In this document: positions 27,364-55,023 of the stretch, in pieces
Numbering within the stretch: the stretch's first letter is position 1
Layout: each line of letters starts with the position of its first letter
The notes under the pieces: generated by a model
What the model was told of the DNA's origin: nothing
Database searches by the model: none
Seen by the model: the letters and a program-made list of their open reading frames with translations, nothing else
Translations under genes and position numbers: made by a program
Origin: Lachnospiraceae bacterium
GTDB taxonomy: Bacteria > Bacillota > Clostridia > Lachnospirales > Lachnospiraceae
DNA: 64,000 nt
Assembly: GCA_029062895.1 (NCBI GenBank)
Contig: JAIDPF010000022.1
Coordinates: 1-64,000 of the forward strand
Reading direction: 5' to 3'

Positions 27364-28185
27364 ATGCCGTGGTGCCCGAAATGTAAAAACGAATACGTAG
27401 AAGGAATCAAGAGATGCAAAAAATGTGATTGCAGTCTGGTAGAACAGCTGATCCGGAAGGAAGACAGCATTGCTAAGGGGGCTCCTACGCAGCTTCAAAG
27501 TATTGTCGATCTGTTACATCAGAATAATATCTCCTCAGCGCGTGTGCAATACGATGAGGGAGAAGAAATCCATTATCTATTAGTGGATCCGGAGGAACGG
27601 GATGCGGCAGCTAATGTTGTAAGTGAGATTGCGCGTATGGAAAACCAGATGCGTTATCAGAAGATGCGTAGTGTGGGAGGCGGCAGTAATAATGGGAGTA
27701 ATGAAATATATCAGAATAAAATGGAACAGGCGCAGGAGGTCAAATCTTCCGCGTATGCGCTGATTATTGTAGGAATCGTAGGATCAGTATTTAATATTCT
27801 ATATATTTTTAATGTGATACCCATCAGATGGAGTACTTTTACAAAGACAGTGACCTGTTCTGTAATGGGCGTTTTATTTCTTGCATTGATCATTATGGGA
27901 TTTTTATCTGTCAAATCATTTAAGAGTCTTTTATCTTTTGCCAAAGAAGAAGATAAGATGACCGGAGAGATCGAAAAGTGGTATCAGAAAGAATTGACGT
28001 CTGAACAGATAGATGCCATGCTGGAAGGAAGGATGGAACCTAATCTTCCAGAAGAGGAAAAGTATTTTTACAGGATTGAGCAGATCAGACATGTCCTGAC
28101 AGAAAAGTTTATGAATCTGAATCCGGCGTATGCTGATAATATGACAGAGAAAATCTATCAGGAGCTGTATGAGCATGAGGCTTGA
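27364..28185 (+). CDS. Zinc-ribbon membrane protein of unknown function
   Basis: CPKCKNEYVEGIKRCKKCD N-term; two TM segments. Confidence 0.75.
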   Translation: MPWCPKCKNEYVEGIKRCKKCDCSLVEQLIRKEDSIAKGAPTQLQSIVDLLHQNNISSARVQYDEGEEIHYLLVDPEERDAAANVVSEIARMENQMRYQKMRSVGGGSNNGSNEIYQNKMEQAQEVKSSAYALIIVGIVGSVFNILYIFNVIPIRWSTFTKTVTCSVMGVLFLALIIMGFLSVKSFKSLLSFAKEEDKMTGEIEKWYQKELTSEQIDAMLEGRMEPNLPEEEKYFYRIEQIRHVLTEKFMNLNPAYADNMTEKIYQELYEHEA

Positions 28186-51777: not shown

Positions 51778-52293
51778 ATGCAATATACAGGTAAATATAA
51801 ATCTCCGTTCGGCAGCATTTTACTTGCTGCGGATGAGACCGGACTGACAGGATTATGGTTCGAGGGGCAGAAATATTTTGCCGATACCCTTGATCCGCAG
51901 AATGCCGAGAAGGAACTGCCGGTTCTGATACAGGCCAGGCAATGGCTGGATATCTATTTTTCAGGAAAAGAACCGGAATTTCAAGTGCCGCTTCATGTTA
52001 CGGGATCAAAATTTCAGCAAAAAGTATGGGCAATCCTTTCTGCCATACCTTATGGACAAACAATTACTTATGGCGCTGTCGCAAAGCAGATTGCCGTGAC
52101 AGATGGAGTGGAACGGGTGTCGGCGCAAGCAGTAGGCGGCGCGGTAGGACACAACCCGGTATCCATCATCATACCATGCCACAGGGTAGTGGGAAGCAAT
52201 GGAAGTCTTACCGGCTATGCCGGCGGATTGGAGAAAAAAGCTGCACTTTTAAAGCTAGAAGCAGGAAATGGAGAGAATAGGGTTGTCAGATAA
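51778..52293 (+). CDS. ogt: Methylated-DNA--[protein]-cysteine S-methyltransferase
   Basis: IIPCHRVVGSNGSLTGYAGGLEKKAALL motif. Confidence 0.95.
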   Translation: MQYTGKYKSPFGSILLAADETGLTGLWFEGQKYFADTLDPQNAEKELPVLIQARQWLDIYFSGKEPEFQVPLHVTGSKFQQKVWAILSAIPYGQTITYGAVAKQIAVTDGVERVSAQAVGGAVGHNPVSIIIPCHRVVGSNGSLTGYAGGLEKKAALLKLEAGNGENRVVR

Positions 52294-53236
52294 AAAAAAG
52301 CCTCTTATCATCATTGCCGGTCCGACGGCGGCAGGAAAAACTAAAACTTCAATATTATTGGCCAAGAAAGTGGATGGGGAGATTATCTCTGCAGATTCCA
52401 TGCAGGTCTACCGCTATATGGATATCGGTTCTGCAAAAGTGACGCCGGAGGAAATGCAGGGAGTGCCGCATCACCTGATCGATGTTCTGGAACCCACCGA
52501 GGAATTTAATGTGGTGCGTTTCCAAATCATGGCAAAAGCAGCTATGGAAGATATTTATGCACGGGGCAGGATCCCGATCCTTGTCGGCGGGACAGGCTTC
52601 TATATCCAGTCCATATTATATGATATCGACTTTACGGAAAACGAGGCGGACACAGCCTATCGCCATGAACTGGAGCATCTTGCCAAAGAGCAGGGCAGCG
52701 AAGCCCTTTATCGGATGCTGATGGAAGCGGATCCGGAAGCGGCAGAAGAACTGCATCCCAATAACATAAAACGTGTCATCCGGGCATTGGAATATCATCA
52801 TCTGACCGGACAGAAGATATCAGAACATAATCAGGAGCAGCGCCATAAATCCTCCCCATATGAGGCCTATTATTTTGTATTGACCATGGACCGCGCTAAA
52901 CTTTACCAAAGAATCGATCTGCGTGTGGATCTGATGCTGGAACAGGGACTCATAGAAGAGGTTAAGAAATTAAAGGCGATGGGATTGACCCAAAATGATG
53001 TCTCCATGCAGGGCCTTGGTTATAAGGAGATTCTTGCTTTTCTGGAGGGCGAGGCGACATTGGAAGAAGCCATCTATACGATCAAACGGGATACCAGACA
53101 TTTTGCCAAACGACAGCTGACATGGTTCCGCAGAGAGCCGGAAGCGATCTGGATCGACTGCGATCCCGATAAACGTACGGCAGAGGATATTGTGTCGGAA
53201 TTACTGAAATATATATCAGGTAGGGGTGAAATATAA
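52268..53236 (+). CDS. miaA: tRNA dimethylallyltransferase
   Basis: IAGPTAAGKTKTSILLA, SADSMQVYRYMDIGSAK motifs. Confidence 0.96.
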   Translation: MERIGLSDKKKPLIIIAGPTAAGKTKTSILLAKKVDGEIISADSMQVYRYMDIGSAKVTPEEMQGVPHHLIDVLEPTEEFNVVRFQIMAKAAMEDIYARGRIPILVGGTGFYIQSILYDIDFTENEADTAYRHELEHLAKEQGSEALYRMLMEADPEAAEELHPNNIKRVIRALEYHHLTGQKISEHNQEQRHKSSPYEAYYFVLTMDRAKLYQRIDLRVDLMLEQGLIEEVKKLKAMGLTQNDVSMQGLGYKEILAFLEGEATLEEAIYTIKRDTRHFAKRQLTWFRREPEAIWIDCDPDKRTAEDIVSELLKYISGRGEI

Positions 53237-53239
53237 TAC

Positions 53240-53683
53240 TAGGCAATTGCGAAAGAGTTAAGTCCGGCTTACATAACTCTTTGTTTGAAAATAGTTGTTC
53301 CAAAAACATCATAAATGAAATCATTTTTGGAACAACTATTTTCAAACTTCAAGTTATGTAAACCTAATGAGCAGAATTACGGAACTAAAAATGATAAAGT
53401 AATTGTTTTACGATCACCTGATAAATAAAGATAGGCAATTGCGAAACTGCTGATTTTCCATAACCAATTACAAGTTGGTTATAACCAGTTACAACTGGTT
53501 ATTGCCAGTTGTGCAATGCAGACAATATCATACGCCGGGTGCTTGTGCGCTCGCCGGCACTTAGGTGCCGTATTTTGGCATCTTAGTGCCGTTGCAGAGC
53601 GTGCGCAGCGGAAGCGTGACCGGCGATGATATGTCTGTGTTGCGCAACGGAAGCATGTAAAACCATTGTTTCGCAATTACCTA
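53240..53683. repeat. Composite intergenic element delimited by 15-bp repeats (two direct copies, one inverted)
   Basis: TAGGCAATTGCGAAA at 53240-53254 and 53432-53446; inverted TTTCGCAATTACCTA at 53669-53683; multiple internal hairpins. Confidence 0.8.
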
Positions 53684-53712
53684 AAAATTTTAACAATAAA
53701 GAGGTAACGCAT

Positions 53713-55023
53713 ATGAACAAAATCGAAGAAATGTATCGCTCCCTTGGCATTGATGAGGAAGTATATCACTATGGCCGGACGATTCTGGAATCCCTGAAAG
53801 AAAGGTATGAGCGGATCGACCAAGTAGCAGAATATAATCAACTTAAAGTTTTAAAAGCCTTTCAAAAGAATCAGGTCAGTGAAGCCTGCTTGTTAGGAAC
53901 TACAGGATATGGGTATAATGATCTTGGAAGAGATACCTTGGAGCGTGTCTATGCTGATATATTTCGGACAGAAGATGCTCTGGTACGTCCGCAGATCACC
54001 TGCGGAACTCACGCTCTTGCCCTTGCCCTGATGAGTAATCTACGACCGGGAGACGAACTGCTCAGTCCTGTGGGGAAACCCTATGACACATTGGAAGAAG
54101 TGATCGGGATCGGCAAGACCAAAAGCTCGGATGGAAGATCCACCGGTTCCCTCGCGGAATATGGCATCAGCTACCGTCAGGTAGATTTGCTGGCTGACGG
54201 AGCATATGATTATGAAGGTATCCGGAAGGCTGTCAATGATAAGACGCGTCTGGTCACCATACAGCGTTCTAAAGGATATCAGACAAGACCGACCCTTTCC
54301 GTAGCAAGGATCGGCGAGCTGATCCGTTTTATCCATGACATTAAGCCGAATACCATCATTATGGTAGATAATTGTTATGGAGAGTTTGTAGAAACTATTG
54401 AACCCTCCGAGGTGGGAGCGGATATGATCGTCGGTTCTCTGATTAAGAACCCCGGCGGTGGACTTGCTCCGATCGGCGGTTATATCGCCGGGAAAAAGAA
54501 ATGTGTGGAAAATGCTGCTTATCGCCTGACCTCGCCGGGACTTGGCAAGGAGGTCGGCGCATCTCTGGGTATCCTGCCTGCTTTTTATCAGGGCTTGTTT
54601 TTGTCCCCCAAAGTAACTGCTAACGCATTGAAAACAGCTGTTTTTGCCGCCAATCTTTATGAACGCATGGGATTTTCCGTTCTTCCGGATGGAACGGAAG
54701 AAAGACACGATATCATACAGGCAATTACCTTGGGAAAGCCGGAACTAGTGACAGCATTCTGTGAGGCGGTACAGGCTGCGTCTCCCGTAGACAGCCATGT
54801 GGTTCCTGAGCCATGGGAAATGCCCGGATATGATGCGGATGTCATTATGGCCGCCGGGGCATTTGTTTCAGGATCTTCGATCGAACTCAGCGCGGACGCG
54901 CCGATGAAAGAGCCTTATGCCGTATATTTTCAGGGAGGACTTACCTTTGAACACGCGAAATACGGAATGCTCAAGACCGTACAATATCTAAAAGATAGGG
55001 AACTGATTACATTGCCCGTATAA
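53713..55023 (+). CDS. Methionine gamma-lyase family / aluminum-resistance-type PLP enzyme (YnbB-like)
   Basis: LLGTTGYGYNDLGRDTLERVYADIFRTEDALVRPQITCGTHAL pattern; located after miaA as in Firmicutes. Confidence 0.92.
   Translation: MNKIEEMYRSLGIDEEVYHYGRTILESLKERYERIDQVAEYNQLKVLKAFQKNQVSEACLLGTTGYGYNDLGRDTLERVYADIFRTEDALVRPQITCGTHALALALMSNLRPGDELLSPVGKPYDTLEEVIGIGKTKSSDGRSTGSLAEYGISYRQVDLLADGAYDYEGIRKAVNDKTRLVTIQRSKGYQTRPTLSVARIGELIRFIHDIKPNTIIMVDNCYGEFVETIEPSEVGADMIVGSLIKNPGGGLAPIGGYIAGKKKCVENAAYRLTSPGLGKEVGASLGILPAFYQGLFLSPKVTANALKTAVFAANLYERMGFSVLPDGTEERHDIIQAITLGKPELVTAFCEAVQAASPVDSHVVPEPWEMPGYDADVIMAAGAFVSGSSIELSADAPMKEPYAVYFQGGLTFEHAKYGMLKTVQYLKDRELITLPV

Follow-up and report, generated by a model that had tools for sequence, protein, structure and literature searches.

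The window, a 64 kb stretch of DNA from a Lachnospiraceae bacterium, carries miaA and a methionine gamma-lyase-like (mgl) gene on the same strand, flanking a space that is filled with repeats (Table 1). Genes were called with a home-made codon-usage caller, which places the start of miaA at 52283, while its longest ORF begins at 52268. The sequence TAGGCAATTGCGAAA occurs in exact copies at 53240-53254 and 53432-53446 and in an inverted copy with one mismatch at 53669-53683, as had been claimed in an earlier note on this DNA. No further matches with up to two mismatches were found in the window, and chance matches at the same threshold had a mean of 0.22 and a maximum of 2 in 100 shuffles. The spacings of 192 and 252 bp between these repeats were also as described; the first unit could be resolved into an element (A) of about 181 bp and a junction of 11 bp, and the second (B) holds as a unit of 252 bp. 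The space was also said to be packed with hairpins and devoid of a credible ORF, and both descriptions could be confirmed. The predicted RNA fold of 53240-53683 reached -184 kcal/mol against -106 +/- 4.7 kcal/mol for shuffled sequences, a 41-nt inverted repeat was found (53266-53306/53324-53364), and no credible ORF was seen between the two genes.

Table 1. Features of the miaA-mgl region in the window.
Feature	Position	Strand	Remarks
miaA coding sequence	52283..53236	+	Upstream gene of putative operon
MITE A	53240..53420 (about)	+	Intact left end (53240-53254), degenerate right end (about 53405-53420)
Long hairpin of A	53266..53364	+	41-nt arms, 88% complementary
A-B junction ATAAATAAAGA	53421..53431	+	11 nt, AT-rich
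MITE B	53432..53683	+	Ends 53432-53447 and 53668-53683, 16 nt, one mismatch
Small palindromes, AACCAGTT-type	53460..53508	+	Only in longer (about 252 bp) B copies of the window genus
Conserved structured core of B	53503..53655	+	Match to covariance model R1, 122 bits, E 1.8e-27
Shine-Dalgarno (SD)-like AGAGG of mgl gene	53700..53704	+	16 nt past end of B
Methionine gamma-lyase-like coding sequence	53713..55023	+	Downstream gene

A BLAST search of the 476 bp of this space against the genome of the window resulted in 73 matches in two separate sets, one covering module A (query positions about 5-180) and the other module B (about 200-447). The end pattern TAGGYAATTGCGAAA had 78 matches in the whole genome at up to two mismatches, compared to 10 for a reversed control pattern, and inverted pairs of these ends enclose elements whose length ranges from about 50 to 330 bp. 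Based on the two BLAST sets and the paired inverted ends, A and B were assigned as two MITEs. They possess terminal inverted repeats, are small, have no coding capacity and share their ends with an autonomous element, an IS present in other Lachnospiraceae. The right boundary of A was set against two intact copies (L254 and L262): near 53420 the inverted end reads GTTTTACGATCACCTG in degenerate form, where the intact copies have GTTTTGCAATTACCTA. The earlier note was right about a MITE-like nature and, for module B, about a structured RNA-like unit, but its single composite or nested element of 476 bp found no support: A and B are each present alone at other loci. The note had named as refuting a lack of homologues elsewhere together with a lack of expression, or homologues confined to this locus with drifting hairpins; instead, homologues are dispersed genome-wide and the pairing is kept through compensatory change.

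The copy analyses rest on individually retrieved loci. Five of the 35 genus genomes carry the family, with many copies each, and the remaining 30 have none. In a close relative (G041, locus L265), whose miaA and mgl proteins are 91 and 93% identical to those of the window genome, the two genes are separated by a gap of 14 nt without element, representing an empty site. In genome G025 the same gap begins with an A-like start and finishes with a B-like right end, with a run of N between them. Some A copies of the window genome (L204-L213) are diverged hairpins without terminal repeats, several of them opposite to the neighbouring genes, and may belong to a separate, older hairpin family. Shortened B-like elements precede near-identical gene starts (GTGGAAGAAGAAAA) at G000:C86:1040-1089 and 2023-2074 and at G000:C73:26809-26860 and 27772-27825, which suggests that the genes were duplicated together with the element.

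Target duplications, which are AT-rich, were 11 or 12 bp long in 34 of the 48 measurable cases. In a set of 80 SD-oriented elements the best duplication length was 11 in 20 cases and 12 in 14 (examples are AATTCTATATTG at L400 and AAATAAAAAAAT at L426). At the window locus the duplications are too diverged to be read, and the A-B junction ATAAATAAAGA would fit a target duplication by its length, with a sequence too diverged to prove one. Stacked copies were found elsewhere. At L002 the sequence TTCTTAAAA is present both before A and between A and B; B is followed by a close variant of it and then by GAGAGG. Three elements lie in a row at C72, two IS ends are arranged in tandem at L425, and at C100 A and B are fused, with outer flanking repeats common to both. 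The A-B pair of the window is read as a stack of the L002 type whose duplications have decayed.

The end sequence was found in many Lachnospiraceae (among the matches listed in a scan of named genomes), and five loci (L118, L081, L159, L126 and L166) contain full elements with matching ends and a length of 1755-1771 bp (about 1.76 kb). Each of these encodes one ORF of 490-514 amino acids, a DDE transposase with a DUF772 match and a weak DDE_Tnp_1 match in Pfam. In NCBIfam the transposases match IS1182 with 80.8-83.1 bits, which is under the equivalog cut-off of 270, and by sequence they are distantly related to IS1182 and filed as IS1182-like or IS1182-related only. A Y-x2-R-x3-E-x6-K motif is present (YKIRTAVERDINHIK), which is typical of the IS4/IS5/IS1182 group. 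The IS end at the transposase-start side is TAGGCGTTTGCGAAACGCC and the opposite end TAGGTAATTGCGAAACTC; both types occur on the MITEs described here. A close relative occurs in 17 of the 150 genomes of the family. In the 35 genus genomes, among them the window genome and the four other MITE carriers, no transposase of the clade could be detected, and mobilisation of the window-genome copies by an IS-type transposase is for this reason deduced from their ends and to be regarded as probable.

Other transposon families were considered and rejected. For ISLre2, no UPF0236 (PF06782) gene was present in the window genome, and the matching IS carries DUF772/DDE_Tnp_1. An IS630 or Tc1/mariner type of TA target was ruled out once duplications of 10-13 bp were seen beyond the TA. 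Stem-loops or palindromes, at which IS1272 of the IS1182 family inserts, were not found as targets; the elements target AT-rich sequence before SD-like motifs and duplicate 11-12 bp. Two of the full IS copies reside on large plasmids, pCY360 of Butyrivibrio proteoclasticus (L425) and p330 of Clostridium felsineum (L426), where the transposase gene is missing from the listed annotation; the copy on p330 precedes a glycoside hydrolase family 43 gene.

Nearly all copies occupy gaps between genes of the same direction, and one of their ends closely precedes an SD and start codon. The 95 TIR-paired elements that were compared came from the window genome, from its genus and from other genera. In 74 of them an SD-like motif begins 10-22 nt beyond one end only, and in none beyond both. 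Base-shuffled flanks gave a mean of 7.5 and a maximum of 17, and the same 13-nt interval moved outward (from 20 nt on) gave 4 to 11 elements. The spacing peaks sharply at 14-19 nt, the motif being rare at 20-32, 25-37 and 30-42 nt. At random intergenic positions of the window, the motif occurs at 10-22 nt in 11.8% (binomial p about 1e-49) and at 14-18 nt in 5.3%, compared to 66 of the 95 elements at the latter distance (binomial p about 1e-61). The 21 elements without the motif were classified by a strict pattern, and several of them are inner members of stacks or adjoin near-SD variants.

As the pattern was first noticed in the 95-element set, later sets matter as tests. Eleven of 16 TIR-bearing copies from other genera carry the motif (motif list slightly widened) at a spacing of 15-17, and all seven IS copies from family genomes have the motif as well. 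Where the flank beyond the transposase-5' end of an IS copy could be read, the motif lies there at 12-19 nt in 15 of 15 copies, whereas it is found in this range at the opposite end in 0 of 13. Two more plasmid copies, from Clostridium felsineum (L426) and Roseburia (L427), agree, resulting in 17 IS with the motif at the transposase-5' side, while the IS on the Butyrivibrio plasmid (L425) adjoins another IS end and not an SD motif. In three of the 15 copies the SD-like motif has no evident start codon at the expected place, which hints that a DNA motif is read and not translation. The orientation of B to the SD is uniform in the genus of the window (21 of 21 with an SD call). A fixed orientation of all MITEs was rejected, since both orientations are found in other genera; it holds only for the full-length IS. 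The transposase itself probably recognises the SD-like DNA. Survivorship, the purging of insertions elsewhere, could sharpen the pattern. No SD-targeting transposon was found in the literature searched, a limited set of open-licence papers.

A core of about 150 nt is common to the B-like elements of other genera. When 16 sequences were aligned with MAFFT and the structure was taken from one row, 86.9% of the cells paired, compared to 27-45% in slid controls, and 34 of 49 pairs showed two-sided changes. Covariance model R1 of this core had matches in 62 of 150 family genomes (one genome per genus), often with at least 20 copies. For 65 model matches from 22 genera, 94.8% of the cells pair and two-sided changes were found in 45 of 49 pairs, in an alignment that was fitted to the model. 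Throughout these counts, cells and copies are not independent events. A GNRA-type tetraloop is present in 60 of the 65 copies, on a hairpin closed by covarying G-C/U-A pairs. G-U cells exceed A-C cells (141 vs 31), which suggests that this strand is under selection in single-stranded form, either RNA or ssDNA. The long hairpin of A has compensatory changes at 15 of its 41 pairs (43 copies) and, opposite to B, more A-C than G-U cells (60 to 21), as though selection had acted on the opposite strand.

The window and 14 loci gave no match in Rfam at the gathering score, and a known RNA family was rejected after lenient Rfam searches gave only chance-level or hairpin-like matches. No R1 match was found in 17 IS-bearing loci, and co-occurrence of the B core with the IS is not clear, with B matches in 8 of 17 IS-bearing genera compared to 62 of 150 overall. 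Outside the window genus, the ends of many copies are degenerate or of another type. In four genomes (G106, G071, G073 and G152; L348-L358, L365-L367 and L388-L390) many B cores without TAGG ends were observed, and another way of moving or spreading may be at work there. Extra hairpins were seen in the apical part of helix P3 at L125:2739-2993, L154:5631-5920 and L035:1272-1515, and the P3 tip seems to tolerate or attract insertions. At 53555-53576, within the B core of the window, a hairpin that resembles a terminator and has a short run of T (CGGCACTTAGGTGCCG TATTTT) competes with the longer P3 pairing, and attenuation would be possible.

With a probability of about 85%, the locus consists of two MITEs of an SD-upstream-inserting family that were put successively between miaA and mgl. 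This reading draws on observations of the ends and copies, the empty site, the distance to the SD, the length of the duplications, the covariation and the IS with matching ends. Random or merely AT-seeking insertion could be proposed instead, with the SD pattern reflecting the survivors between a stop codon and an SD in an operon. All copies are old enough to be filtered, insertions lie between genes and the duplications are AT-rich, all of which suits this alternative. Survival, however, asks only for a minimal distance to the SD, yet the peak is sharp; only 6% of AT-rich intergenic 11-mers lie 14-18 nt from an SD, compared to the 66 of 95 elements; and three IS copies stand at SD-like motifs where no start codon was found. 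Convergent regions, the safest places, are moreover nearly empty of elements, whereas the BOX, RUP and IS elements of pneumococcus are enriched there (PMC3049150). We regard random insertion as unlikely.

A and B could also be one composite that moves as a unit, like a modular BOX element. About nine loci have the two side by side in one and the same order, and the fused pair on C100 has its common outer repeats. Most copies, however, are A alone or B alone, the target repeat at L002 is also present between the two, and the junction sequence varies between loci, which leaves the composite improbable; fused pairs such as that on C100 may move together secondarily. A primary role of the intergenic stretch as a cis-regulatory RNA of mgl would suit a conserved, covarying structure directly before the SD. 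It is very unlikely, as the same cores precede many unrelated genes and are often antisense to the gene in other genera, the close relative G041 has no element at mgl, and no Rfam family was matched.

According to the preferred reading of two successive MITE insertions, two elements with ends TAGGYAATTGCGAAAC would have entered the short miaA-mgl gap one after another. Full-length members of the family would insert in an AT-rich stretch just upstream of an SD-like purine motif and duplicate 11-12 bp, so that the SD would end up about 14-19 nt from one element end and the translation signals would survive. Because the SD is left usable, it could be targeted again. A later insertion would fall between the earlier element and the SD, giving a stack of A, duplication, B, duplication and SD, and the A-B stack would be the result of repeated insertion at one SD. 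B also carries its folded core of about 150 nt, which is kept by compensatory mutation and would act as a single strand (RNA or ssDNA). In a more far-reaching and rather doubtful extension, the transposon system would home to SDs, and the GNRA-bearing B core would be a functional RNA or folded ssDNA that acts in mobility or in tolerated insertion into operon mRNA, possibly contacting the translation machinery that defines the target.

The IS resembles the IS1182 family (e.g. IS1272) in its DUF772 and DDE_Tnp_1 type domains, its Y-(2)-R-(3)-E-(6)-K signature, its length of about 1.75 kb and its best NCBIfam match, with a score that stays at 83 bits against the family cut-off of 270. IS1272 replaces stem-loops without duplication (PMC5678879), whereas the IS described here targets sequence upstream of SDs with a duplication of 11-12 bp. 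The MITEs are similar to BOX and RUP of Streptococcus pneumoniae, which are small, gene-less, structured and clustered intergenic repeats with inverted ends. They differ in their position directly upstream of SDs between co-directional genes, while the pneumococcal elements favour gaps between convergent genes (PMC3049150). The consulted parts of these two accounts describe neither an SD spacing rule for BOX and RUP nor SD-directed insertion for IS1272, BOX or RUP (PMC5678879, PMC3049150). ERIC, Correia and other enterobacterial or neisserial MITEs are palindromic non-autonomous repeats that can enter operons and affect mRNA processing (background in PMC3049150). They have other ends, hosts and target, a distinction based on description and not on sequence.

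The kind of system, a transposon with its MITEs, is known; the SD-upstream target is unusual, and the structured B core, absent from Rfam, is new. Target specificity and the autonomous partner go beyond what the earlier note had seen. About 40% of the Lachnospiraceae genera sampled carry the B core, an undescribed structure. A target upstream of the SD does no harm to the host gene, can be used again and exists in front of most genes. If true, SD targeting would offer a tool for putting DNA into 5' leaders, and it would explain how gene-less repeats can fill the operon gaps of a major family of gut bacteria without killing genes.
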